Shown: piece by piece, positions 2,871 through 46,677 of the stretch
How the letters are laid out: each line of letters begins with the position of its first letter
Position numbering within the stretch: position 1 is the first letter of the stretch
Notes under the pieces: model-generated
Databases searched by the model: none
Told to the model about the DNA's origin: nothing
The model's input: the letters and a program-made list of their open reading frames with translations, nothing else
Position numbers and translations under genes: made by a program
Assembly (NCBI RefSeq): GCF_003353065.1
Contig: NZ_CP027806.1
Location: 1,087,001-1,151,000, forward strand
Length of the DNA: 64,000 nt
DNA from: Cyclonatronum proteinivorum
GTDB taxonomy: Bacteria > Bacteroidota > Rhodothermia > Balneolales > Cyclonatronaceae
Direction of reading: 5' to 3'

Positions 2871-5800
2871 CTAACGAATCACGGCTATGCGGATGAGCTT
2901 GGTTTCTTCTCGCCCGTTGGCTGAGGCGCGGACGCGGGCGTAATAGGCACCGCTACTCCAGCCCGAGGTGTCGATAAGGACTTCTTCGGGTACGCCGCCG
3001 CGTGCCTGCAGCCGCTGTTCGTACAGGCGGGTGCCGCTCATGCTCAGAACGGTAATGGTGATGTCGGCTTCGGTGCTGGTCTGATAGCGGATGAAGGTTT
3101 CGTTGCTTGCGGGGTTGGGCCAGTTATAGGTTTCACCGGTGTTGAGGAGACCGAATTCAGGCAGGGACAGGTTGGGGTCCGGCTCGGGACCGCGGAGTTT
3201 GTTGCCCGGATCGTTGCCGTAAACGGAGCCCCAAAAGACTTCACCGGCTCCTTCAAGTTCCCAGACCCTGAGGTCGCCTGAATTACTGATGGCATAGAGC
3301 CGGTTGCCGTCAAGCACGGGCATAAGCGGGAAGCGTTCGATATAGCTTACGTCTTCCTGCGTAGAGCCAACATAGAGCGGGAAACCGTCGAGCGGACGCA
3401 GGCGGTTGTCGAAGCCGTGGATGATATAGGACAGGCTGTCGGCGGCAGGCATGAGGAGATCGGGGCGTCCATCACCCGTAAGGTCGGCGATCAGCGGGGA
3501 GGACAGGAAGGTTTGCCCCTGTGGTGCTTCGAGGGGGAAATCCCAGAGGAGGGCGCCGTTGGCGTTGCGGCCTTCGAGTCGGTTTTGCAAAAAATCAACA
3601 AAGAGAAAATCAAGGGAGCCGTCGCCGTTGAAGTCAACCAGGGCAGGCCAGCTGATACCGGGCAGGGACCCGGCCCTGGCCAAATGTATGTCATCCCTTT
3701 CATCGGGTGCGAGCAGGCTGAGTGCTGTGCTCGTGAGCAGTAAGGGCTGTGGCGGTTGATTTTCCGAGACCTGAACCATGCTTACATAGCGGCGAGGGGG
3801 GGTGAAATCCGTGCGTAAATTCCGGTTAATGCTGCCATCGCTTGTGCTCAGGATACCGTCTTCAATGCGGGCGCTTATACCGCCGAGGATAATGCTTTCC
3901 TGAAAGCCGCCGTCAATAATGGTGCGGGCACCGGTTTGGGCGTCGAGCCGGACCGGCGTGGTGTCAAGGTCTATGGTTTGACCTGTTCGGGATGAAGGTT
4001 TTCCCGACAATTCGCCTATATGGCCGGTTTGCCAGATTTTCGTAAAGGTACCGTCCTGGAGCTGGAAGAAGCGGGCTGTAGGGTCATCGCCTTTTTCATC
4101 AAGAGTGAGTACACCGTTTTGGGTGTACAACGGCATTACGGTGCCAAACCCGAAGGAATGACGATTTTCGAACGAAATACCGGCTTCGTTATCGAGGGGC
4201 AGTGCATGTACCGATATATCGCCGGGTACGAGCAGGAACGAATTACCGGTATCCTGCCGGTATATAACGAGTGGTCTCGGCCATCCGTAGTGCCCGGAAT
4301 CAAATATCGCGAACCTGCCGTCAAGCGAGCCTTCAAACAGCAGGCTGATGTTTTCGGCACCGATCCTTCGTGCTCTGAAACTTGCGGTAGGGAGGTTGTC
4401 GGAGAAGTCATAAAACTCAAAAAATGAAGGACTTCCGGTATTGCTGCGGTTGTTGGGGAAGGTGTCGTCGCCGAAGCGGTTTTCGTAAATGACTATTCGT
4501 TGCCCGGAGGCGGTGATCACCGTAAAATCGTTGCCGCTCCACCAGAAGTCAAAAGGGCCGCCGCTTGAGAAGTTCGTAAGGCCCCCGGCAGGCCGCCCGA
4601 TGTCCTGCGCGCCGTCGGCTTCCTGTAAACTTACGCCCCTGCGGTCAGGGTTGTTGTTGATCGCGTTGTTTCGCTTCTGTTCGCGGATTACGGCTTCGTC
4701 AATGTGCCAGATCAGGATTCCGCCGTTGAGGAGTCGGTCGTCGTCGGTGCCGGCTTGTCCGTCCTGACCGATGTCGAGGCCGCCGGGTACGGCCCAGTCA
4801 AAGTTGCTGACATTTACCAGCACACCCGCGGGCATGATTTCGCTGTACCTGCGCTGATCGGTCGGGCTGAAGCGCTCTTCTTCGTTGGTAAAAACCCGGG
4901 TTTCAAAGCTGCCGTCGGGCAGGCGGAAGGTGAGCTCCACACCTGTGCCGAAAGGGTCGCGGTGCCGGTTTTCAACCAGAAAGTATTCGTCGGTTGAAAT
5001 GCGGTGCCGCGCAATACTCTGGGGCTGACCCAGCGAAGCGGCGGGGAGCTGAATAGCGGAATCGTCGGTGAGGCTGATGTCAAAGGGGGTGTCCCATCCC
5101 ATAAACTGACGCTCCCATGCCGAGGGCAGCGGGGGCATGAGGCCGTACCAGGCAAAAATACCCGCGCCGTCCATCAGGCCGAACTGACCGATTCCGGAGC
5201 GCCCGGTTTCCGTGTCAAAAAGATCGGGCAGACCGAGAAAGCTGCCGATGTTCGCCGTGAGTATACCGTTGATGGAAAGTTCAAGTACAAATTCTTCACC
5301 GGTTACATCTTCGCCCCGGCGGCTTTGTGTTTGGGGAAGGATAGCGGAGTTGGTGACCCGCACCCCGTCACGCAGCGGAATACCGTCGAAATCGGGACCC
5401 GCGTCGGATGAGAGTCGTGTAATAGATTCCTTGCTGAGGAAAACAGAGGGGATGTCCTGCGGGGTGTTGTCGAGGGTGGTGCCGGTAAGTTCGATGTCCC
5501 GCCCCGCTCCGGCATGGAATATCACAAACAGGGTGCGGTCCTGAGGCAGATGGCTGAGGTCGGGCAGGTCCGACTGGGCAACGAGGCTCCAGGTGTCGTA
5601 GAAAAGGTCTCCGAGCCGAAAGTTTTCGCTGTCATCAGGACCGGTTGGCGAGTATTCCCGCATGGGCCTGTTGAGCCGGTACACCTGCGGGAGTACGGTG
5701 AATTCGAGCTCAAGCTGTCCCTGTGAGGCTTGCTGGAAATAGTTGCGGGCAAACAGCAGGTGGGATTCGAAGTAGCTTCGATTATGGGGCAGCGGACCAA

Positions 5801-6101
5801 TCGTGATGTCATCGCGCATAAGGTAGTCGAGCGCGAAAGTCCCGTTTCCGGAGGTGAAGCGGTTTTCTTCCGGTTGGAATTCGACCATGACCGCGAGAAT
5901 GTGTACGGTGCCATCTGAGATGACCTGTGTTTCTGCCTGCCCTGACCCGTGCTGCGACTGAGCCGCCATAAAGGGCTGAAAGCGCCCGGCAAGTTCATCG
6001 GCAGGGATGGGCTGGGCAATCGTGAATGTACAGGGAATCAAAAAAAACAGAAGAATACCCGTAACAGATATTCTTCTGAATGTGAAGGAGTTTACGAACA
6101 T
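2871..6101 (-). CDS. T9SS cargo with an M6-peptidase fold but a degenerate zinc site
   Basis: 1076 residues from the ATG at 6101; an in-frame TTG at 6149 would add 16 residues ahead of the signal peptide and is less likely. The signal peptide ends near FTIAQ. The next 330 residues resemble the immune-inhibitor-A/M6 fold: the region before LGLPDLFD aligns with the family motif HExxH-x-LGLPDLYD, but here HExxH reads ANIGS (5241-5255). Further on there are FG-GAP/VCBS-like repeats (VDFNGDGSLDF, ADLTGDGRPDL), and the last 85 residues form a T9SS type A sorting domain beginning NWPNPASNETF. It is therefore predicted to be secreted and surface-attached through PorU/PorV but not to be a working M6 protease. 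It sits directly downstream of porV on the same strand, which suggests a role tied to the secretion system. The fold assignment is by motif only. Confidence 0.8.
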   Translation of the reverse strand: MFVNSFTFRRISVTGILLFFLIPCTFTIAQPIPADELAGRFQPFMAAQSQHGSGQAETQVISDGTVHILAVMVEFQPEENRFTSGNGTFALDYLMRDDITIGPLPHNRSYFESHLLFARNYFQQASQGQLELEFTVLPQVYRLNRPMREYSPTGPDDSENFRLGDLFYDTWSLVAQSDLPDLSHLPQDRTLFVIFHAGAGRDIELTGTTLDNTPQDIPSVFLSKESITRLSSDAGPDFDGIPLRDGVRVTNSAILPQTQSRRGEDVTGEEFVLELSINGILTANIGSFLGLPDLFDTETGRSGIGQFGLMDGAGIFAWYGLMPPLPSAWERQFMGWDTPFDISLTDDSAIQLPAASLGQPQSIARHRISTDEYFLVENRHRDPFGTGVELTFRLPDGSFETRVFTNEEERFSPTDQRRYSEIMPAGVLVNVSNFDWAVPGGLDIGQDGQAGTDDDRLLNGGILIWHIDEAVIREQKRNNAINNNPDRRGVSLQEADGAQDIGRPAGGLTNFSSGGPFDFWWSGNDFTVITASGQRIVIYENRFGDDTFPNNRSNTGSPSFFEFYDFSDNLPTASFRARRIGAENISLLFEGSLDGRFAIFDSGHYGWPRPLVIYRQDTGNSFLLVPGDISVHALPLDNEAGISFENRHSFGFGTVMPLYTQNGVLTLDEKGDDPTARFFQLQDGTFTKIWQTGHIGELSGKPSSRTGQTIDLDTTPVRLDAQTGARTIIDGGFQESIILGGISARIEDGILSTSDGSINRNLRTDFTPPRRYVSMVQVSENQPPQPLLLTSTALSLLAPDERDDIHLARAGSLPGISWPALVDFNGDGSLDFLFVDFLQNRLEGRNANGALLWDFPLEAPQGQTFLSSPLIADLTGDGRPDLLMPAADSLSYIIHGFDNRLRPLDGFPLYVGSTQEDVSYIERFPLMPVLDGNRLYAISNSGDLRVWELEGAGEVFWGSVYGNDPGNKLRGPEPDPNLSLPEFGLLNTGETYNWPNPASNETFIRYQTSTEADITITVLSMSGTRLYEQRLQARGGVPEEVLIDTSGWSSGAYYARVRASANGREETKLIRIAVIR

Positions 6102-6242
6102 GTAGGGAGCCTGAATGGAGTCAGATACGACAGGCGCAAAAAGCACCAATCCGGTAAATGGTGCGGACTGACCGGTAAAGGGGATGAGGCCGCAGAACCA
6201 TCACCCTTTACCGGCAAGGCCGCATATAGGTAAGCGGGTGCG

Positions 6243-7358
6243 CTAAAAATTGAGCAGCACCGATAATCGGATGGTGTTGGCCAGCGGGTGATCTTCCCGA
6301 ATGGTGTAGAGGTAGCTGAAGTCAACCCCGAACATGTTGTAGCGCAGACCGGCACCAAAGGTGATAAACTGACGGTCTCCGTTGTTGGGGGCTTCGTAGA
6401 AGTAGCCTGTCCGGATGGCAAATTGCTGGTTGTACCAGTACTCAACCCCAACGGCATACATGAACTGTTCTACGAGGGGTACTTCAACAAAATCCTGTCC
6501 GTCAAAGCGGGTGTAGGTATCCCAGGAGCGGAAGAGGGCTTCACCCACGCCCATGGCGCGTCCTGTAGTGTCGTTGCGGGCCATGATTTTGGATACATCA
6601 CCGGCAAAAGTAAGGGTGTTGAAGCCGTCGTTATCGAGGGCAAGATCCAGGGCGAAACCGGCACGCAGAAGGGTTGGGAGCGGATCGGCCTGCGCGTCAT
6701 CGGTGTACTGAATGGCCGGACCGATATTGGAAAGGTTGAAGCCGGCACTCAGGCGGGAGGTGCGGTCCAGGAGGTTGAACTCATTGCTGCGGTAAAGGGC
6801 AGCAAGGTCAATACCAACGCTTGTACCCGCTTTCGCGGTCTGACCGCCTACGTCGATATTCGGGGTGAGGCGGCTGTAAATAAACCGGAAGCCGGTGCCG
6901 ATGGCCCAGTTCTGGTTGAGGCGGAAACCGTAGCTGAGTCCGGTAGCGAGTTCGTAGCTGGAAAAGCTGCGGATCTCGCGACCAATTTCGTCGGTCTGAA
7001 TTTGCTCACCCAGGTTGAGGTAGGTGATGTGCCCGCCAATGGTGCCGATACCTTCGATGTAGGTTTTACCGACCAGGTAGTTGTAGAAAAGGTCGGTGTT
7101 GAAGTTGGGCAGCCAGTTGGCATAGGTGAGGGCAATCTGCGTTTCAGGTTCCTGAAAAGCAAGGCCGGCAGGATTCCAGAACACGGCAGAAGCGTTATCG
7201 GCAATCGCTACCCCTGCATTACCCATACCCGGCGTACGCGAATCGGGCTCAATTTGCATAAAAGGCACGGCTGTAATACCAACCTGCGCATAGGATGGAG
7301 CGATACCGGCAAGCAGCAATGCAAAAGCAGCTATATAAAAGGTTGAGAATTTCTTCAT
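6243..7358 (-). CDS. porV: PorV, T9SS outer-membrane shuttle/adaptor protein
   Basis: 371 residues with a clear signal peptide (MKKFSTFYIAAFALLLAG...SYAQ) followed by the PorV/PorQ hallmark segment: RTPGMGNAGVAIADNASAV then FWNPAGLAF near residues 41-68. The rest alternates as amphipathic beta strands of a FadL-like barrel and ends in a hydrophobic LSVLLNF strand. In P. gingivalis PorV binds cargo C-terminal domains and delivers them to the PorU sortase. Here it lies 134 bp downstream of porU on the same strand, which supports the assignment over generic PorV/PorQ-family barrels. It is 141 bp upstream of the M6-like cargo gene. Confidence 0.92.
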   Translation of the reverse strand: MKKFSTFYIAAFALLLAGIAPSYAQVGITAVPFMQIEPDSRTPGMGNAGVAIADNASAVFWNPAGLAFQEPETQIALTYANWLPNFNTDLFYNYLVGKTYIEGIGTIGGHITYLNLGEQIQTDEIGREIRSFSSYELATGLSYGFRLNQNWAIGTGFRFIYSRLTPNIDVGGQTAKAGTSVGIDLAALYRSNEFNLLDRTSRLSAGFNLSNIGPAIQYTDDAQADPLPTLLRAGFALDLALDNDGFNTLTFAGDVSKIMARNDTTGRAMGVGEALFRSWDTYTRFDGQDFVEVPLVEQFMYAVGVEYWYNQQFAIRTGYFYEAPNNGDRQFITFGAGLRYNMFGVDFSYLYTIREDHPLANTIRLSVLLNF

Positions 7359-7492: not shown

Positions 7493-10400
7493 CTAACGAA
7501 TAATTACGAGACGCTCTATATGTTCCTGTGTTTGGCGCCCGTTAGGGCCGTCAGTGCGTACCCGCACGTGGTACAGATAGGTGCCGGCGGCAAGGCGGTT
7601 GTTATCATCATCGCGACCGTTCCACTCAAACATTTCCAGGTTGCCGTTGGTGATCCGGCTTTCGCGAATTTGCGCTACCGGCCTTCCGCTGAGCGTGTAG
7701 ACCCGGATGAAGACATCCAGCGGCTGACCTACCGGCTGATTGTGTTCGAAAGCGAAGCGGGTGAAGTTGTGCATTGGGTTCGGATAGTTGTACACATTCC
7801 GGATGGCAAGCTCGTCGCCCCCGCTCACATCAAAGAAAATCTCGGTTTCGCCCACATTGTTGAAAACGTCCCAGGCGCGCACGTACAGCGACCATGCACC
7901 ATCTTCCAGATTGTCCAGCGGGTACTCAATGCGGCCGCGGGTGAAATCGTCGAGCGCGCTGGTGTAAAACTCGTTAAGAATGAAGGTGCGCTCTTCAGCC
8001 GGACGGTCGGCATTGCGGAGGGTACCGATGATTTCATGGCCTACGCCCGCGCCGGTTGTGTTCACCCCGCCTTCACTGAAAACATCTACCACTAAAGTGG
8101 GGTCACGGTTGACCAGGTTTCCGTTCACAAAACTGTCGTCGTTGAGGTAGGCGTCGAGCTGCGGGCCTTCGAAGGTGTTTACGGCGTTGGGGTTGATGCC
8201 GTTAAGGAAGAAGTTGGAGAAGGAGCCAACGGCATCCGATACGCCGGGATTGATCCCGTAAATATGAATGCGCGCAAGTGAATCGGAGTAGGCGATATCC
8301 TGCGGAACAATGAACTCGGTGCTGAACTGCCCGTCCGTAATGCTGACCCTGCCATTAAAGAGAATGTCGTTCTGTACGCGGAAGCCGCAGTCCGGCGACA
8401 GGAGGTTGCAGGTTACGTCAGGGTTGGGGAGCAGCTCCAGACGGGAGGCGTCAAACACCCGCAGTATGCCTTCTCCGTTAAAGCTGTTGTCGGTTGTGCC
8501 GCCGGTGCCGAGCACGCGCCCTTCCACAGAAACCCGGTCAAGTGAGCGCAGCTGCAGCGGTGCGTTGGATGTGCTGACCGGTAGTCCGTTGATGGCGGTG
8601 ATTTCCATCTGTTGCTCCGGAAGTCCCATCGACATGGCCGGATCGCCCAGTAGTACGAACTTGCGGTTGTTAATGCTGTTGCGGTTGGCGGCTTCGTTGT
8701 TATCGAGGATGAAGTTTTTTGTGGTGCGGTACACATCCCCGATTGTGCGGTTGCTGCCGTCGGGGTTGCGCATGACCATTTGCCGGGTGAGTTCGATGTG
8801 CAGGGCGAAGTTGTTGTCCTGCGTTTCGTTGGGGCTGGAGCTCGTGAACACCACGCGGGAGGTCGTCATTGCGGCTACGGAGCCGCCATTGTCGTGGAGC
8901 ATGAGCTTCTCTGCGCCTGAAAAGTCAACGTTGTCGTCGTAGCGCCCGAAGGAGCAGGTCGCTGTGATCATAATCATGGGGCGCTCGCGGTTGGTGAGCC
9001 GGGGAATATCCGAGGACTGAAACAGCCGTTGCTGCGTGAGCACCTGTTCCGCACCGTGACCTGAAAAGTGCAGGGTGAGGGTTCCGGCATTGATCTGATT
9101 GACCAGCGCAGTCGTGCCCTGTGGTACCCGCCGCCCCGCAGGCGTATTTTCCAGCGGGAAGCTGAACTGATACAGCTTGCGAACCCGGATACCGGTTGCG
9201 TCTTCATCAATGGCTTCGGCCACAAAATCAGCGTTGAAGGTGTGCAGGTCGCGGTCGTTGTTGTTGCTGTTCATGTTATCGTCAGCCGTGAAAGTGAACA
9301 GCGTGCGCCAGTCGCCTGCCTGATCCAGGTTTTCGAAGGCTTCGATTTTGTCTATGATGATGTGCGCCTGTTCCGCCGAAACAACCGGAATCCGGCCAAT
9401 CTCGATATCAAGACGGTTGTTGCGGTCGCTTGCCAGCCATGAACCTTCATCATCCCCTAAAAATCCAAAAAAGTCGTCACTGCCGTAGGTGCCGGTGCGG
9501 GTGAGGTTATCGGCGTCAACGTAGTGCTGAAAGTTGAACACGAGGTTTTCAACGGAGGTGTCTTCGATACCTTTGTAGTCGAAGGTTGCATTTCCGAACA
9601 GCATGAGATAGCGGGGCATACGTTCATCGCTGAGGCCGGCGCGGTCGTACAGAAATTTCATGAAGTCACGGATGGCAACCGGATCAGGTACGCCGCCGCT
9701 GAATTCATGAAAAATCTGGTTCTGCGTTACAATTACGGGGCGGAGTCCGTTGCGTGCGGCGCGGTAATCGGCGAGGCGCTGCGCGGGTTCGAGCAGGCGT
9801 TCAGCGGTTACGATCACGTAATCCGGGAAGAAGTTGATCCCGTGCAGGTTTTGGTTTTCGACCGCAGTTCCGGGCGCGGGGGTATAAAAGCGGGTAGCGG
9901 CAATCAGCTTGCGGCCCGGATTGTAGAAGTAGCGTGCCGACCAGTTGCTGCCGCTGCCTTCAGCCGGGATGAGCACCGGGTTAACGGGATTGGTGACATC
10001 CATCACCAGCGGACGCGACGAAAAGCCGGTGAAGCTGTAGCGTGCAAGCTGTGTGGTGGAAGTGGAAAGGTCCGGCGAAAGGAAGTGAAGGATACCGTTT
10101 TTGGGCGCAAGCAGGCGCTCCGCACGGATATTGATGAAATCAACCCAGCCCCGCGATTCGGGGGTTGTGGTCATGAATCGGGCCCGGATTTCGAGCCGCT
10201 CGTTATCAAGGGTCACGTTGTTGAGCTGCCGTACAACATTGGTGATGTTGGCCGAGCGTCCGGTAGAAGCGGAGAGGTCGTTAATGGGCGCGATGTTGAC
10301 GGTGCCGAAAATCGCGTTGTCGCGGCTGAATTCGAAGGTCATGAGGGAGCGCGACCGCCCGGCCATGCGGGCATTAAACTCGATGGTGCTGTTAGGGATG

Positions 10401-11539
10401 AAGCCGGGGAGGGTGTCGCGTACAATCACCTGATTGCTGAATTCGGGGGTGAAGAGCTGACCAAACCAGAGGGTGCCGGAGCGCTGCTGCGATTCCGGCA
10501 TGTGAAGCTCTTCTTCGATAAAGATAAAATCCCGGAAGCGGTCTATTTCTTCGCTCACGCTGCCCTGCGCCTGAAAAGGCTGCAGGCGTTCGCCGCGCTC
10601 GCTGCCTATGGTCAGATACACAAAGTTGGTCGTTGCGTAGGCGTGTGTGTGGTGGGTCCAGCTGCGGGAGATCGGGTCGAAAATGCGCTCATTGACTTCA
10701 TTGCCGTAGAAAATGACGGCGTCGTTGGCGCCAAAACTGCCGTCGCTTTCGCCTTCGACGATGATGGGAATTTGTGTGAAGGCCGGACGTGCGTCCGCAT
10801 TGGGCAGGGGAAGCTCGTAGCCGTTTGTGCCCCAGAGCTGAATGTTGCGGGGATCGATGTTGTCGGTATCAATGCCAAGATCCCGCAGGTAGGTGCGGTC
10901 GAGCCGGTATATGCCGTTTCGGGTAACGGGGATCTGATACCAGCTGCCGGTGCTCAGCGGGTGATTGCCTTCGCTTTGGATCCGCTGTGAAATGCGCGCG
11001 TAGGCTGCCGCTGCCTGCGGGGTCCAGGTCTGATCATTGTACACCCGTATGCGCAGGCTGCGCGTGATGAGGAACTGATCAGCTTGTGTAGCGTCACGGC
11101 GGGCGATGTTGAGCTGAAGCGCGGAGCGGTACTGTTTGCGCACTTCACGGGGTGCAGAGGCCTGTGCAAGCGGAGCGCGGGTATCGGCAAGGAGGGTGAA
11201 GATGTCTTCTTCGGAACCGTGCTGTGCTTCCACCCTGGAAAGGCGCGGACTACTTGCGCGCACGATGTCCTGTTCGAGAATACGGTACCGAAGCTCACCA
11301 TCGCGGTAAGGAACATCGAGGAAGGCTGGCGCAAACACGCGAAGGCTGTCGTTGGAAAATGCGTACTCCGTGAATTCAGGCGTAGCGTGAACCACCTGCA
11401 AATGCTGCGATTGGGCAGCAAAGGGGGCGGTCATCATCAAAAGAAAAAGACAGAAAACGCGGAATATCGGAGGCACGTGTTTCAAAACTCTACGGGTTGA
11501 ACGAGAAAAAGACGCTTTTGGAGTACAGGCAAAAACCAT
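7493..11539 (-). CDS. porU: PorU, T9SS C25-family sortase
   Basis: About 1348 residues from the ATG at 11539; an upstream ATG at 11674 is in frame but would place over 80 residues before the signal peptide (IFRVFCLFLLMMTAPFAAQSQ). The gingipain-like C25 domain is visible, with the catalytic His in HFSGHGAE (codon 9056-9058, residue 828) and the catalytic Cys in TATCSFGRYDD (codon 8954-8956, residue 862). The N-terminal 600 residues are beta-rich, and the C-terminus carries a FlgD/T9SS-like Ig domain starting YNYPNPMHNF. PorU cleaves cargo sorting domains and attaches cargo to anionic lipopolysaccharide in P. gingivalis. Length and motif order fit PorU rather than a secreted gingipain, and porV follows it. 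Confidence 0.93.
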   Translation of the reverse strand: MVFACTPKASFSRSTRRVLKHVPPIFRVFCLFLLMMTAPFAAQSQHLQVVHATPEFTEYAFSNDSLRVFAPAFLDVPYRDGELRYRILEQDIVRASSPRLSRVEAQHGSEEDIFTLLADTRAPLAQASAPREVRKQYRSALQLNIARRDATQADQFLITRSLRIRVYNDQTWTPQAAAAYARISQRIQSEGNHPLSTGSWYQIPVTRNGIYRLDRTYLRDLGIDTDNIDPRNIQLWGTNGYELPLPNADARPAFTQIPIIVEGESDGSFGANDAVIFYGNEVNERIFDPISRSWTHHTHAYATTNFVYLTIGSERGERLQPFQAQGSVSEEIDRFRDFIFIEEELHMPESQQRSGTLWFGQLFTPEFSNQVIVRDTLPGFIPNSTIEFNARMAGRSRSLMTFEFSRDNAIFGTVNIAPINDLSASTGRSANITNVVRQLNNVTLDNERLEIRARFMTTTPESRGWVDFINIRAERLLAPKNGILHFLSPDLSTSTTQLARYSFTGFSSRPLVMDVTNPVNPVLIPAEGSGSNWSARYFYNPGRKLIAATRFYTPAPGTAVENQNLHGINFFPDYVIVTAERLLEPAQRLADYRAARNGLRPVIVTQNQIFHEFSGGVPDPVAIRDFMKFLYDRAGLSDERMPRYLMLFGNATFDYKGIEDTSVENLVFNFQHYVDADNLTRTGTYGSDDFFGFLGDDEGSWLASDRNNRLDIEIGRIPVVSAEQAHIIIDKIEAFENLDQAGDWRTLFTFTADDNMNSNNNDRDLHTFNADFVAEAIDEDATGIRVRKLYQFSFPLENTPAGRRVPQGTTALVNQINAGTLTLHFSGHGAEQVLTQQRLFQSSDIPRLTNRERPMIMITATCSFGRYDDNVDFSGAEKLMLHDNGGSVAAMTTSRVVFTSSSPNETQDNNFALHIELTRQMVMRNPDGSNRTIGDVYRTTKNFILDNNEAANRNSINNRKFVLLGDPAMSMGLPEQQMEITAINGLPVSTSNAPLQLRSLDRVSVEGRVLGTGGTTDNSFNGEGILRVFDASRLELLPNPDVTCNLLSPDCGFRVQNDILFNGRVSITDGQFSTEFIVPQDIAYSDSLARIHIYGINPGVSDAVGSFSNFFLNGINPNAVNTFEGPQLDAYLNDDSFVNGNLVNRDPTLVVDVFSEGGVNTTGAGVGHEIIGTLRNADRPAEERTFILNEFYTSALDDFTRGRIEYPLDNLEDGAWSLYVRAWDVFNNVGETEIFFDVSGGDELAIRNVYNYPNPMHNFTRFAFEHNQPVGQPLDVFIRVYTLSGRPVAQIRESRITNGNLEMFEWNGRDDDNNRLAAGTYLYHVRVRTDGPNGRQTQEHIERLVIIR

Positions 11540-11794
11540 GAAGGGGGCGTCAAAACGGGAAATCAGTAGCGTATAGTGCGATATTGCGGTTCTTTTGATG
11601 AAAGTGTGAGGGCTTCTAAAAATACTTGTACCTGCCTTCATAAGCAAACAGACTTCACATATACCCGGCAGCATGCGGACGGGTTCCCATTGGTTGGATG
11701 AATTTTTTCAGACGCACGCGCAGCGGGTGATTTTGGAACGCGGATTTTGGGGTTTGGGCTGGGCAGGGCCGGTCGCGATTCCGGGGTTGGTTAT

Positions 11795-37530: not shown

Positions 37531-37686
37531 ACGGAAGCAGGAATTGCCTCAGGAATTTGGTATTAAGATGACCATACATGTGGTTTGCATTGCGGAACAC
37601 GGGGCGCGGTTTGGGGTTTAAGCGGGCGTGTGTTCGTTTTGGGCTGAAAAGCCGAAGCCGTATATTGACCTATAATTTTCCTCCAT

Positions 37687-38802
37687 TTGCAGTATCTCTT
37701 TTTTGCTTTGCTGAAGTTTCTTTTTCTCTCCGCCGCTCTCATTTTTGGACTTTTTGCGAACAGCGCACAGGCGCAAAGCCTTGTGCGCGTGTCGTACGGC
37801 AACGATTTTATGTCGGTCGGTAGCGGCGCACGGGCGCTGGGGATGGGTTCGGCGCATACGGCTTTTGCCACAGGTGTGACCGCCGCATTCTGGAATCCCG
37901 CGGGTTTGTCGCAGTTGCAGGGGCTTGAAGCGGCCTATATGCACTCTGAGCGCTTTGGCGGAATCGTAGGCTACGATTACGGTGCCGTCGCAATGCCGCT
38001 GCCCGGCTCGGAGGGCACGCTGGCGATCAGCTTTTTCCGACAGGGCGTGGATAACATCAAAAATACGCTCAATGCATGGGACCGCGAGCGGAACCGTCCG
38101 CGGGAGAATGTGAATGATTTCATCACTTCGTTTAGCGCGGCAGATTTGGCCGTGATGATTTCTTACGGCACGCCCGTGAATGAGCGCCTGAGCTGGGGCG
38201 CTTCGGTGAAAATCCTGAACAGCAGCATCGGACCGTTTGCCAACGCCTGGGGTTACAGTCTCGACGTGGGCGCGCAGTACCGCGCCGGCGATTATCTTTT
38301 GGGGGTGAATCTGATGGACATCACGACCATGATGAAATTCTGGTCGGTTGATGCCAACGAGCTGCGGGCCCTTGAAACCGAGTTCGGGGATGAAATCCCG
38401 GTCGGGGAGAATGAAGTCATTTTGCCGACGCTCAAACTGGGCGCAGCCCGCTTCTTTAATTTCGGGGATTTCAGCCTGATTGCCGCCGCCGATGCTGATT
38501 TCCGTTTTGAAAACCGCCGCACCTATTATATTAATGTGGGCAGCATGAGCATCGAGCCGCATGTTGGTCTGGAAGCTGGCTATCACGATACAGTTTTCCT
38601 GCGGATGGGGCTCACCGATTTTTCGACCAACCGCAGCGGGCGCATCAACACGTCACCGACCCTCGGCGCGGGTATCCGGCTTGGGGCGTTCGACTTCGAT
38701 TATGGGTTCAGCAGCTTTGCCGGAGCAGCCTCTGATCTGGGCTTCACCCATCGGCTGTCGCTGCGGTTCTCCCTTGCCCGTATGGGCAGCAGAGACGCGT
38801 AA
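37687..38802 (+). CDS. PorV/PorQ family outer-membrane barrel protein
   Basis: 371 residues if the TTG at 37687 is used; a second TTG at 37708 gives a compact signal peptide ending NSAQAQ. No ATG fits. After the signal peptide the family hallmark is GSGARALGMGSAHTAFATG...FWNPAGLSQL, then barrel strands to the C-terminus. It is a distant relative of PorV at 6.2-7.4 kb. PorQ helps attach T9SS cargo in P. gingivalis, but several uncharacterised paralogs exist in this phylum, so the exact role is open. It stands alone in its strand context, upstream of a membrane protein and miaA. Confidence 0.8.
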   Translation: MQYLFFALLKFLFLSAALIFGLFANSAQAQSLVRVSYGNDFMSVGSGARALGMGSAHTAFATGVTAAFWNPAGLSQLQGLEAAYMHSERFGGIVGYDYGAVAMPLPGSEGTLAISFFRQGVDNIKNTLNAWDRERNRPRENVNDFITSFSAADLAVMISYGTPVNERLSWGASVKILNSSIGPFANAWGYSLDVGAQYRAGDYLLGVNLMDITTMMKFWSVDANELRALETEFGDEIPVGENEVILPTLKLGAARFFNFGDFSLIAAADADFRFENRRTYYINVGSMSIEPHVGLEAGYHDTVFLRMGLTDFSTNRSGRINTSPTLGAGIRLGAFDFDYGFSSFAGAASDLGFTHRLSLRFSLARMGSRDA

Positions 38803-40483: not shown

Positions 40484-41397
40484 GAAGAGTATTACTTCTT
40501 TTCCGCCTCGCAGGGAAGACAGATCAAGACGGATTGCGCATTTATATGCTTAGCTCACGCCTTTAGCTGCAGCATAGGCTCTTAGATGTATAACGGGAAT
40601 AGCGAAACCTGATTTAGTATTCTCTATAATTGAAATTAAAAATGTAAAATAAGGTAAGCAGTATAGGTATGCTGGAATTGCCATTAGAATTGACACGGCA
40701 TTTTTGGGGAATCGCAAATTCTTTATGACACCTTTTGAAAAGCAGATGGTCAGGTTTTTGTCATTTAAATGGCTTTATAAAAATAATATGACAAAATTAT
40801 GTACAAATAATTATATATGATTAATATAATTAATCAAAAAAAAGAATGTGTTCATGATGTGCCTCTAACATGCAGCTTTTAGTGCTGGCAACGCTGCTTT
40901 TGACGTCCCTAAGTACAGTTGGTAGCTGAGTGATGGGGTGGTGGGTTAACTGCTATCAACATTAATGTAAATCCCTGAAACGGCTAAAATAGCTGAAAAA
41001 ATGATGTTTTTGGGTTGCCTTTCTTATGATTAAGCCTTTTTATATGTGGAAGTAAAATCAGCCGAAAAGACTTGTCGCAGACTGGATTAAAACTTTTTCC
41101 TTTTTAAAAATTGAATTCATCTTGTGGAAAAATTCCATAAGAATTAAGGACTTGCGTTTAAATTTAAGGGCGTACAAGCTGATTCCGGTTGATTTATAGC
41201 ATCACTAGCTAAGCTTAATCAGGAGTAGATGCCTGCAATGAATGTCATTGCATGAATATTATTTGCGTACATCATATAGATATAAAAAATATGTCTCAGC
41301 ATGTGTTGATGGGTTTTGCCCTATCAGTAAAGCATGTTTTTGATGTTAGTGCAATGCATTATTGCTCCTTAACTATCACTAATCCAATCAAAAACCC
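40484..41397. other. 914 bp AT-rich gene-free region upstream of the large T9SS cargo gene
   Basis: No coding frame of note and no tRNA or copy of the window's repeats was seen. The centre (40780-40860) is very AT-rich, including ATTATATATGATTAATATAA. It may be a long regulatory region for the cargo gene, or decayed sequence. The cargo start has only an A-rich leader (AATCAAAAACCC) and no Shine-Dalgarno. Confidence 0.6.
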
Positions 41398-44300
41398 ATG
41401 AAACATCTGCACAATTGTTATAAGAGCGGATGGCTGTTTCTGACCGTTTTGCTTGTCGCTTTGGCCTGGTCGCCAAACATACAGGCACAACACTTTGGAA
41501 GCACCCAGTCGCTTGACACCACAGAAGCAGTCGTTGATCGTGAGGCGCTGATGAACCGCTTCACCGAAGCGGAACTCAATAGCTTTACAGCGCTTTCGCC
41601 CCGTTTGCTGTCCTCCTTCACAGCTGATGAACTCGCTTTAATTTCACAGATAATGGATAAAACCATTACGGAATTGAGCGCAGCTGAAGAACAGCTTATG
41701 AACCGCCTCAACGCCATTGTTGCCTCATCCGCTGACCCATCATTTTTTGAAGGCCTGCAAGATGAGGATATTGTTTGGTCAGAAGGATTCACCGAAGGAA
41801 TACCCGAAAGCTGGACCGTAACGGATGATTCCGGTAATGGCTTTACCTGGGTTGCCAATGAACCTGGTGGAAGTACGCCTGATTTTGACGGTTTTGCCAT
41901 TGCTGACAGTGATGCAGCCGGTTTAAGTGCTGGTCAGGTTGCCACAACAATGTCAACCGAAGCCATTGATATCTCCGGACTGGATGAAATTTCCTTTATC
42001 ATAAGTCACAGCTATCAACATCTTGGTGATCAATCCGGACGTATTGAATGGAGTCTCGATAATGAAAACTGGGAGCTGCTTGCCGAATATACCGAAAGCA
42101 CCGGCTTTCCTGGTGGTATCGAAGAAAGCTTCAATATCACGGACGCGGTTGCAGGAAACGACAACCTTTGGTTTCGTTTTGTATTCGATGATGCTGGCGG
42201 TTGGACTTGGTGGTGGGCTATCGATGCCGTAACCATCTCCAGCGCTACAGATGACAATGGTGAAGAGCCTGATCCTGATCCGGAAGAATTCATTACACAC
42301 GTAATTGATGAAGTAGCTTATGCAGGCGCAAGCTTCCGTAATGTAACAGGTGATGCGTTTCTCTCGGGTGAGCTTACCGCTTTCGATCCTGATTTTGCGA
42401 TTATAGAACAGGCCGGGGGGACATGGAGCAATGATTTTGCTGTCATTCTTACCGATGCTCCTGAACTTTCGGAAGAATCAATAGTTCTGCAAATTGGTGG
42501 CGCAACCGCTTTCAATTCTGAGTCTATTCTGCTTGATTGGGTAGGCGGGGTTGGAGATGCAGCCGTAACGGATGCTGTTACACTGCCTGAAGCGCTTGAT
42601 CTTGACGGCCTGTATGTTTGGGTTGGTAACGGATGGGCGTCCCCGGCGTCTGTGGGTGTTTGGAGCGGAACCATCGATTTTATCGGAGCCGAAGGAGAAT
42701 TTGCACCGCCGCTTGAATTTGCGGAACTTCAGGTTATCCACAATGCAGCCGATCCTGCCCTCGCTGAAGTAGATGTTTTCATCAACGGCGACCTGTTTGC
42801 AGCGGATTTCCCGTTCCGTGGTGCAACCGGATACCTTACCGTAGATGCTGGCTTTACCCTTGATATCGGCGTTGCCGCACCTGGTGAGACGGAGCCGCTT
42901 CTCAGCTTTGAATTTACCGGTGAAGGCGACGAGGCCTATGCCCTGATCGCACAAGGTGTAGCTGATCCGGCTGCTTTCGCACCAAATCCTGATGGCATTG
43001 ATACCGCCGCAGAGCTGCTGCTTGTTGAAGGCCGCCGCGATGCCGCTGAATCTGCTGATGATTTCGAATTCTACTTGCATCATGGTGCAACCGATGCGCC
43101 GGCAGTAGATATTTTCGTGCGCGAACTCGACGCCACCATTCTGAGTGACGTACCCTATCTCGCCTCCTCAGATTATTTCAGCGTACCAGCTGATGTTTAC
43201 ACCATCGAAGTACGTCCGGCCGGTACAGAAACTGCCGCGGCTACCTTCAGTGCAGATGTAAATGGCCTTGAAGGTGTGAGCGCCGGCATTCTGGCATCTG
43301 GTTTCCTCGATCCTTCCGCCAATCAGGATGGAGAAGCGTTTGCCCTTGCCGTTGTTCTTGAAGACGGAACCGTGGTAACGCTTGAGCCGCTTCAGGGCCC
43401 GATTCTTACGGTTACCCCTGGTGAGATTGAGTTTGGCGATGTAGCTGAAAACTTCGAAGTGTCAACTGATGTAACGTTTACCAATTCCGGAGTTGCCAAT
43501 CTTGCAATTCTTGATGTCGAAGTTGAAGGCAGCGCGTTTAGCATTGATTTTGCAGACGCTACAGTATTAAATCCGGGTGCAAGTGAAACTTACACGGCTA
43601 CATTCAGCCCGGATGCCATTGGTGAATTTACAGGTGAAATCATCATTACCAGCACCGATGCGAACAGTCCGACCACTGTGCCCCTATCCGGAAACGGCGT
43701 AGCCGGTTCAGAAGTCGTATTTGATCCTGCCGAAATTTTGGCAACGCTTGCAACAGAACAGGAAGATACATTTGAGCTCACGGTCAGCAATGAAGGTGCC
43801 GGCGAGCTTGAGTTCTCTTTCCCTGACTATATGATGGAGCGCATTCTTGACGGAAACGACCGTAGTATGGATGCCGTCCGCGCCCGCATGATGACCTCTG
43901 TTCGTTCTGCTTTTGCAAATACACAGGAAGCGATTCAGGCAAACAATGAGCGTTTCGCCATCAATCACTATCTGCAAACCGGCGAGTTGCGTCAGGCCTC
44001 TGATGCAGCTGTAATCGAAGCCTATCACGCACAAATTGCGTCTCAATCCGGTGCAGCTGCAGCAACACCGATGAGCGATGGCTTTTTGATTGAGTTTGAT
44101 GGGTTCACCGGTACTGGTGGCGACTTCCTTACGGTCGCTGACGGACTGAGCGGCGAACTTACTGCAGTAAATCCGGACTTTGTTATTGATGCCGCTGAAG
44201 GCGGTACATGGGCAAACGACTTTGCTGTACTCTTTACCACCGAACCCCTGGAAACAGGTGCCGAAGTTGACCCTGAAACGGTTGTATTTCAGGCTGGTGG

Positions 44301-46677
44301 TCTCACAGCTTATGGTCCTGCCGGTACCCGTGTTGCATGGGGTGAAGGCTCATCGGGTACTCCCGGTACAGCTGTTACAACGCCTATTGCACCTCCGGCT
44401 CCTCTGGATATGTCAGGTGTCTTTGTTTCTATCGGACACGGATGGACTCCGGGCGGCCCAAGCACATGGACTGGTTCAGTTGAACTGGTTGGTGTGAGTG
44501 CCGGTGCTGATTTCATCACCGATGTAAGCCCGGCTTCCGGAACGGTAGCACCGGGTGGTTCTGAAGTCGTAACCCTTACGCTAAGCTCTGCCGGCCTTAT
44601 CGGTGGCGAGTACAGCGGCACACTTAATGCCCTCACCAACGATCCTGCCAATGAAGAGGTAGATATACCGGCTGTGCTCACGGTTACCGGTGATCCTGCT
44701 ATTGCTTTCGATCCTGCTGCACTTGACTTTGGTCCTGTTTTCGTAGGTGAGAGTGCAACGCAGACCGTGACGGTTTCAAACCCGGGCTCAGACCTGCTTG
44801 TTGTTGATGGCTTTGCCAGCAGCAGCGATGTTTTCACAGTTGAAAGCGAAGCATTTGAGTTGCCCGTTGGTGATACATTTGAAGTCACCGTAACCTTTAC
44901 CCCGGATGACTCAGGCGAGTTTACCGGTGACCTTAGCTTCGACAGCAATGCTATCAGCGGAGAGACATCCGTAGCGCTGTCAGGAGAAGGTGCCGACCCT
45001 GGTGTTCTTGAGCTTGATCCTGAAAGCATTGCATTCGATGTAACGGAAGGTGAAAACGGAACATTTACGTTTACACTCTCCAATACCGGTGCGGCTCCAT
45101 TCGATTACAGCATTGGTGGCGGATTTGTAGCGGGCGAAAGCCGCGTTCTTTCTCCGGAAAGAGAAGCAACCGCAGTTCAAACAACAGAAGCTTCTCAGCA
45201 GCGCGCTGCAGAAGGATTTGACTTCAATACTGTAGCCCCTGATCACGTCCGTCAGACATCCTATGAAGCTGAATTCCCGTTTGTGAACCGTAGTGTTTTC
45301 AACGACGAAGTTATCCTGACACACTCGCTGTCTCAGGTGGTTGAGCCATTAACCGGTGTTCGCTGCGGCGGCGGCGGTACAACAGCTGAAAACAGCTTCA
45401 TGCGTACCTACACGCTTACTGACTTCGACATTGATGGCGGGTTTGACGTAACCGCTGTTCAGTTTGGCGTTGAATCAGCCATTGGCCCGGCGCTTCCTAT
45501 CGAAGCCCGTATTTACCTGCTTGAAGGTGACTTTGTGTTCGCTAACATGACCCATATTGGTACCGGCGCAGCTACCATTGATGGGAGTCAGGATCTCTCT
45601 GTCGTTACAATACCTGTAGAAGCGGAAGTCCCTGCAGGCGCTACTATTGTGGTTGAGGCGTTTGTCTTCGACTCTGATACCTCAGACCTTTTCCCTGGTG
45701 CGAACAGTGAAGGAGAAACATCACCGTCATACATCGCATCCGAAACCTGTGGTATTCCTGAGCCTACATCTTACGCTGAGATCGGCTTCCCGGATGCACA
45801 CCTGGTACTTAACGTGGTAGGTGAAAGCGGTGACGGCCTGTTCGTCTTTGAACCTGGCGCCGGAACAGTTGCTCCTAATGAAACAGTAGAGGTTGTTGTA
45901 GATGCCGAAACAGCTGAACTTGAAGCTGGCGAGTACAATGCAGAAATCGTAGTAAGCACTACTTCACCTGCAACGCCTACAGGCGTCATTCCTGTCACTT
46001 TTGAAGTGATTGAAGAAGAACTCTTCTCTGAGTTCGTAACCTTCCAGGTCGATATGACTGCTCAGGCTGAGCTTGGTAATTTCGATCCTGCACTGGGTGA
46101 TGAAGTATATGTTCGCGGAAGCTTCAACGACTGGTCAGTCATCGAAGGTGATGAAATGATCGACGACGGCGAGATGGTATTTACCATTGAGACCGAAATC
46201 TTCGGTGAAGCTGGTACAGTAGTTGAGTACAAGTACTACATTCTTGCCGGCGACGGCCGTGAACTGCCCAACGGCGGTTGGGAAGAGGACTCTGTAGGTG
46301 AAGGCGGAACCAACAACCGTCTGCTCGAGCTGATTGGCGAAGATCAGGTATTGCCTGTTGTATTCTTCAACAACCTGCCGCCTACAAGCATTAACCCGGA
46401 TCTGGAAACCCCGGTTGAGTTTGCCCTTAACCAAAACTATCCGAATCCGTTCAATCCCACAACCAACATTGAATATGCTCTGCCTGAAGCTGCCGAGGTA
46501 ACGCTCGAAGTCTTCAACCTGCAGGGACAGCGCGTGGCGGTTCTCGTGAACGGACAACAAAATGCGGGTACGCACACAGTAACGTTCGACGCTTCCAGAC
46601 TTGCTTCCGGTATGTATCTGTACCGTCTGCAGGCAGGCAGCTTCGTACAAACACAGAAAATGATGCTTGTGAAATAA
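41398..46677 (+). CDS. Large acidic multidomain T9SS-secreted surface protein
   Basis: 1759 residues, signal peptide ending SPNIQAQ. Order: helical segment (30-110); choice-of-anchor-J/MAM-like jelly roll (about 125-285); beta module 1 (298-435, SGELTAFDPDF...GGTWSNDFAV); DUF4397-like domain (438-660, LQVIHNAADPALAEVDVFING); ASH/hydin-like domain (665-770); beta module 2 (895-1035), a duplicate of module 1; further ASH-like repeats; a second jelly-roll-like part with LSNTGAAPFDYS; a CBM20/E-set-like domain (1541-1660, DEVYVRGSFNDWS); and a T9SS type A sorting domain (from about 1675, NQNYPNPFNPTTNI). It is very rich in Asp/Glu, as in halophile exported proteins. Probably an adhesin or polysaccharide-binding surface protein; no catalytic motif seen. 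Confidence 0.85.
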   Translation: MKHLHNCYKSGWLFLTVLLVALAWSPNIQAQHFGSTQSLDTTEAVVDREALMNRFTEAELNSFTALSPRLLSSFTADELALISQIMDKTITELSAAEEQLMNRLNAIVASSADPSFFEGLQDEDIVWSEGFTEGIPESWTVTDDSGNGFTWVANEPGGSTPDFDGFAIADSDAAGLSAGQVATTMSTEAIDISGLDEISFIISHSYQHLGDQSGRIEWSLDNENWELLAEYTESTGFPGGIEESFNITDAVAGNDNLWFRFVFDDAGGWTWWWAIDAVTISSATDDNGEEPDPDPEEFITHVIDEVAYAGASFRNVTGDAFLSGELTAFDPDFAIIEQAGGTWSNDFAVILTDAPELSEESIVLQIGGATAFNSESILLDWVGGVGDAAVTDAVTLPEALDLDGLYVWVGNGWASPASVGVWSGTIDFIGAEGEFAPPLEFAELQVIHNAADPALAEVDVFINGDLFAADFPFRGATGYLTVDAGFTLDIGVAAPGETEPLLSFEFTGEGDEAYALIAQGVADPAAFAPNPDGIDTAAELLLVEGRRDAAESADDFEFYLHHGATDAPAVDIFVRELDATILSDVPYLASSDYFSVPADVYTIEVRPAGTETAAATFSADVNGLEGVSAGILASGFLDPSANQDGEAFALAVVLEDGTVVTLEPLQGPILTVTPGEIEFGDVAENFEVSTDVTFTNSGVANLAILDVEVEGSAFSIDFADATVLNPGASETYTATFSPDAIGEFTGEIIITSTDANSPTTVPLSGNGVAGSEVVFDPAEILATLATEQEDTFELTVSNEGAGELEFSFPDYMMERILDGNDRSMDAVRARMMTSVRSAFANTQEAIQANNERFAINHYLQTGELRQASDAAVIEAYHAQIASQSGAAAATPMSDGFLIEFDGFTGTGGDFLTVADGLSGELTAVNPDFVIDAAEGGTWANDFAVLFTTEPLETGAEVDPETVVFQAGGLTAYGPAGTRVAWGEGSSGTPGTAVTTPIAPPAPLDMSGVFVSIGHGWTPGGPSTWTGSVELVGVSAGADFITDVSPASGTVAPGGSEVVTLTLSSAGLIGGEYSGTLNALTNDPANEEVDIPAVLTVTGDPAIAFDPAALDFGPVFVGESATQTVTVSNPGSDLLVVDGFASSSDVFTVESEAFELPVGDTFEVTVTFTPDDSGEFTGDLSFDSNAISGETSVALSGEGADPGVLELDPESIAFDVTEGENGTFTFTLSNTGAAPFDYSIGGGFVAGESRVLSPEREATAVQTTEASQQRAAEGFDFNTVAPDHVRQTSYEAEFPFVNRSVFNDEVILTHSLSQVVEPLTGVRCGGGGTTAENSFMRTYTLTDFDIDGGFDVTAVQFGVESAIGPALPIEARIYLLEGDFVFANMTHIGTGAATIDGSQDLSVVTIPVEAEVPAGATIVVEAFVFDSDTSDLFPGANSEGETSPSYIASETCGIPEPTSYAEIGFPDAHLVLNVVGESGDGLFVFEPGAGTVAPNETVEVVVDAETAELEAGEYNAEIVVSTTSPATPTGVIPVTFEVIEEELFSEFVTFQVDMTAQAELGNFDPALGDEVYVRGSFNDWSVIEGDEMIDDGEMVFTIETEIFGEAGTVVEYKYYILAGDGRELPNGGWEEDSVGEGGTNNRLLELIGEDQVLPVVFFNNLPPTSINPDLETPVEFALNQNYPNPFNPTTNIEYALPEAAEVTLEVFNLQGQRVAVLVNGQQNAGTHTVTFDASRLASGMYLYRLQAGSFVQTQKMMLVK

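Follow-up and report, generated by a model that had tools for sequence, protein, structure and literature searches.

In Porphyromonas, PorU (NF033707) and PorZ (NF052228), which belong to the attachment complex of the type IX secretion system (T9SS), reach the surface by way of this system themselves and are then retained by an outer-membrane protein, being held by PorV and PorQ; PorV also shuttles cargo (PMC5562754). In Flavobacterium, PorV loops touch the type A C-terminal domain (CTD) within the translocon (PMC10994853). A described system of a different kind is immune inhibitor A (InhA), a peptidase of family M6 (MEROPS subclan MA(M); PDB 4yu5 and 4yu6), whose fold is shared by the N-terminal half of the protein considered here. 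Closest of all is the NCBIfam family NF052323 ('T9SS-dependent M6-like inactivated metalloprotease', or T9SSA_dep_M6i; termed here M6i), of which that protein is a member with a full-length match and whose name states the same inactivation that is described below; the name carries no function. Because an inactivated family is named there, the central point of an earlier note on this DNA (namely, that the protein has an M6-peptidase fold from which the zinc site has been erased) was already known to the NCBIfam curators. Literature searches on the NF052323 name, on T9SS together with pseudoprotease, and on peptidase M6 together with T9SS found nothing within their coverage, which leaves out most subscription journals. 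New here are a count of the linkage to PorV, the persistence of M6i in genomes that lack the sortase module, and the constraint acting on the dead site.

The stretch of DNA analyzed (termed here the window) comprises 64,000 nucleotides of the Cyclonatronum proteinivorum contig NZ_CP027806.1. On its minus strand, to which all coordinates below refer unless a plus sign is given, lie in order porU, which encodes the sortase (7493..11674; NF033707, 954 bits against a cut-off of 420), porV, which encodes the shuttle protein (6243..7358; NF033710, 287.6 bits against a cut-off of 250), and then the M6i gene (2871..6101). The latter is an open reading frame of 1,076 residues, with an ATG start and unbroken throughout, whose product scores 1090.1 bits against NF052323 (cut-off 600) and covers positions 27-1043 of the 1043 profile positions. 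Its layout is as follows: a putative signal peptide at approximately residues 1-30 (ILLFFLIPCTFTIAQ; 6012..6101); an M6-like domain with approximate limits at residues 56 and 570 (4392..5936), delineated from the AlphaFold model and from Foldseek matches to InhA2; a fast-evolving beta-propeller at approximately residues 571-985 (3147..4391), recognized by FG-GAP, Foldseek and conservation; and a T9SS type A sorting domain, that is, the CTD, at residues 994-1076 (2871..3122), which scores 30.8 bits against TIGR04183 (cut-off 23) and 27.3 bits against PF18962 (cut-off 27). Of these T9SS type A cargo features, the CTD is thus recognized by profile and the signal peptide by sequence inspection alone.

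Several other elements of the window are recorded here in their own right. Between porV and M6i, at 6162-6224, a strong hairpin (fold z-score -4.3), present as a single copy in the genome, precedes another small stem that carries five T; it is possibly an attenuator or a partial terminator. In most relatives the gap between these two genes is almost absent. Elsewhere in the window, 37669-38799 (+) encodes a PorV2-like protein that scores 285 bits against NF052325, short of the cut-off of 325, and 41383-46674 (+) is a 1,764-residue open frame in which choice-of-anchor D domains are accompanied by a T9SS type A sorting domain.

The M6-type fold proposed in the earlier note, for which a structural comparison had been suggested, is borne out by structure prediction and by profiles. 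An AlphaFold model of full-length M6i, for which 71 family members served as input, is confident (pLDDT 88.4, pTM 0.88), and a model of residues 56-570 is better still (pLDDT 92, pTM 0.94). When the latter is compared by Foldseek with the PDB, the only significant matches are four InhA2 zymogen chains (family M6; 6.8e-12 to 3.7e-11), the next match being at 0.1; inasmuch as the TM-scores by query are modest (0.47-0.48), the case for the fold leans more on this E-value gap. The M6 likeness surfaces only when the N-terminal domain is used alone: with the full-length model propeller proteins lead, integrin alpha and DDB1 being among the top matches, and no M6 match occurs among the 50 listed in either Foldseek library. 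At the sequence level, TIGR03296 (M6) covers residues 289-381 at 4.4e-13, which is under that model's cut-off, and Pfam Peptidase_M6 matches 9 of 70 M6i members (best 3.5e-6), the window protein not among them. A sequence search of the PDB returned no M6 relative; its SIR2 matches, with E-values of 0.2-0.35, are taken as chance. M6i, in other words, joins an M6 metallopeptidase fold without HExxH to a beta-propeller and to a type A sorting domain. It resembles InhA also in its LGLPDL segment, which contains the Asp of HExxHxxGxxD, and in a Met-turn-like segment; it differs in having neither of the zinc-binding histidines nor the catalytic glutamate, and in adding the propeller and the T9SS sorting domain.

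The residues that replace the zinc site are ANIGS, at positions 283-287 of the protein (5241..5255), as established by mapping the open reading frame and by alignment; the earlier note had located this replacement exactly. They lie on a helix formed by residues 278-289 (5235..5270), as assigned from the secondary structure of the AlphaFold model, and align to the HExxH column of genuine M6 proteins from the same phylum, such as the protein at locus L086 (AHEYGHIFGLPDLYDT); other M6 proteins fetched from that phylum likewise keep HExxH. The note had named a real HExxH elsewhere in the protein as fatal to its claim, and a scan of the whole window protein revealed none; an HEMAH that does occur in two close relatives (L010 and L110) sits off-site, and the notion of a genuine motif elsewhere in M6i was rejected. 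The note had also asked whether homologs that follow porV all lack the motif: HExxH is missing from the M6i site in 157 of 157 loci (77 members from a 198-genome sample and 80 loci on named GTDB contigs), and both histidines and the glutamate are gone in every one. Although these are loci rather than independent species, inasmuch as the two sets partly overlap (e.g., L012 and L108), the absence of the motif from all 157 homologous loci excludes chance.

The surrounding motifs are retained, as had been claimed for LGLPDL, for the Met-turn-like segment and for the type A sorting domain. Asp293 (5223..5225), the Asp of LGLPDL and the last residue of HExxHxxGxxD, a position that in the M6 pattern provides the third zinc ligand, is conserved in 71 of 71 aligned M6i members; at locus L111, whose site (AQIGSHIGLPNLF) is also dead, it is changed to Asn. 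The Met-turn-like GLMD occupies residues 308-311 (5169..5180), with Met310 kept in 68 of the 71 members. Asp311 and Asn278 are invariant within M6i and rare in active M6 proteins; His106 and Phe307 also count among the residues specific to M6i. Judged by its sequence, the window protein is a non-peptidase homologue of M6 that stands outside the M6 peptidases proper.

In a tree from which the HExxH columns were excluded, the sampled M6i proteins form one clade (SH-aLRT 100); on this tree a single change accounts for the inactivation, the loss being reconstructed as ancestral to the family. The sister group of M6i is unsure because several active sequences sit on long branches. Named carriers belong to the Balneolia, Rhodothermales, Ignavibacteria, Kryptonia and Thermochlorobacteriaceae, and within the 198-genome sample no full-length M6i was found in the groups that resemble Bacteroidia (the labels Bacteroidia-like and Kapabacteria-like, given to some sample groups, are ones that we infer). 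In many further families of the sample porV occurs without a full-length M6i, and in those M6i-free genomes that were inspected porU-porV is often kept, with unrelated genes after it. Since M6i is missing from many genomes with a T9SS, the system can work without it.

Where M6i does occur, its association with porV is nearly constant. The gene directly upstream of M6i is porV in 150 of the 152 loci in which this can be tested (76 of the 77 genomes sampled and 74 of the 75 named loci), the exceptions being L065 and L177; in the latter the frame is damaged at its beginning, and the open reading frame starts approximately 440 nucleotides past porV. The tie to the secretion machine that the earlier note had drawn from a single porV neighbor thus recurs in nearly all relatives. 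This linkage bears directly on the possibility that M6i is T9SS cargo like any other, serving at the surface as an adhesin or binding protein and merely sharing an operon with porV. Its type A CTD, the rapid evolution of its propeller and its absence from many T9SS genomes are what one would expect of cargo; nevertheless a linkage of this extent, found across several classes, is far tighter than cargo would lead one to expect, and within its own genome M6i has one strong match, the remaining ones being matches to the sorting domain. Such a role is therefore considered unlikely, while retaining some weight.

A second possibility is that M6i serves the sortase side, as an accessory to PorU/PorZ/PorQ attachment that, for example, presents cargo C-termini to PorU. 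In keeping with this, porU is usually found upstream of porV within the same gene run, PorZ and PorQ are present both in the window's own genome and in most M6i genomes, and PorU and PorZ, although missing in some M6i genomes, occur alongside M6i in most. (M6i as a stand-in for PorZ or PorQ was rejected, inasmuch as both co-occur with it.) What makes an accessory role quite unlikely is a set of five genomes from the Balneolales, with a listed completeness of 99-100%, that represent three lineages (G061, G081, G108, G115 and G167): in these PorU gives no match at E<=1e-20 and PorZ and PorQ give weak matches only, but a full-length M6i remains beside porV, and the M6i tree requires three PorU losses to account for them. 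In three further genomes (G079, G125 and G133) PorU is encoded elsewhere and the porV-M6i pair is intact, and two named Rhodohalobacter strains (L116 and L125) have porV-M6i with no porU in the upstream stretch. A relative from the same order (G147) keeps porV, lacks both PorU and M6i, and gives weak PorZ and PorQ matches; this genome speaks against the PorV-associated role favored below. Consequently, M6i is not bound to the presence of the PorU/PorZ/PorQ sortase module, with which it does not invariably co-occur; the porV-M6i pair outlives the loss of that module, and M6i follows PorV, the shuttle, and not the sortase. Likewise, cleavage of the M6i CTD by PorU is not general, given that some M6i genomes show no PorU.

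The genomes without PorU raise related observations. All five, together with G147, combine porV and type A sorting domains with the absence of a PorU match. The PorU-less genomes tend to have fewer type A sorting domains (7-32) than the genome of the window (91) or three relatives (37-66), though this is a loose trend since another genome (G155) has PorU and yet just 14 such domains. Four genomes (G079, G125, G133 and G137) encode, in addition to PorU, further long PorU-related proteins of approximately 1,830-1,930 residues that fall under the PorU cut-off and are perhaps of the PorU2 type.

The dead site is the part of M6i most strongly held by selection. Conservation peaks at residues 281-320 (mean 0.76), with most of the propeller at approximately 0.2-0.3. 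When the window protein is compared with three relatives, pN/pS over residues 270-315 is 0.045, 0.090 and 0.134, versus 0.28-0.37 over the whole protein, ratios that are rough because synonymous sites are close to saturation. Because this segment is the best conserved and the ratios all point in the same direction, the site is being maintained rather than decaying, which, together with the open frame, upholds the earlier claim that the protein is maintained. Conservation of this kind might also be read as the mark of an enzyme whose site has been rebuilt, using another metal or another chemistry and drawing upon the invariant Asp293, Asp311 and Asn278, or upon His196. That conservation is highest in the dead-site segment, which carries invariant residues of M6i's own, speaks for this; against it, no known catalytic motif takes the place of HExxH and both histidines and the glutamate are lost in all members, so that a rebuilt enzyme appears improbable. 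Some pseudo-proteases act as decoys or inhibitors, and on this general precedent M6i might regulate active M6 proteases in the cell that makes it; however, the window's own genome contains no M6 protein above E=1e-12, and few are found in the order, which makes such a role very improbable and weakens the inhibitor function that the earlier note had entertained. The notion of a decaying protease pseudogene, which the missing motif and nothing more would favor, is effectively refuted by this constraint, by the intact frame and by the identical loss across several classes.

M6i is probably a working, if little studied, part of the T9SS. On balance we lean towards its being a non-catalytic, PorV-associated surface component of that system whose former active-site cleft binds peptide. 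By analogy with PorU and PorZ, M6i would use its own CTD for export through the T9SS, after which a protein of the outer membrane, most likely PorV, would hold it there. Its dead cleft would bind an extended peptide (cargo or the CTD of cargo, for example) without cutting it, this being the least certain step, and M6i would in this way help PorV to hold, release or present substrates. The proposed link to PorV is supported by genomics, though adjacency of the two genes may reflect co-regulation instead of contact; peptide binding, the weakest step, is suggested by the sequence conservation of the former active site. PorZ also has beta-propellers, and neither PorU nor PorZ has a profile match to M6i beyond the shared sorting domain. 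As a tentative extension, which we regard as possible though doubtful, M6i could be an unrecognized, dedicated T9SS component of several classes of Bacteroidota other than Bacteroidia: a pseudo-protease held on PorV, whose dead cleft recognizes cargo or CTD peptides and thereby lets the shuttle sort, hold or release substrates even where PorU is lacking.

Were this role correct, M6i would rank with PorU and PorZ among those parts of the machine that the T9SS itself exports. Most work on the T9SS concerns Porphyromonas and Flavobacterium, and if M6i is a partner of PorV, then much of the diversity that bears this system carries a component on which no study was found. Lineages that lack PorU but possess PorV and M6i would, if this is true, offer a natural experiment in which type A cargo has to do without the sortase. 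Finally, with conservation of this pseudo-protease highest at the dead site, the question of whether a peptidase cleft has become a peptide receptor is a testable one.
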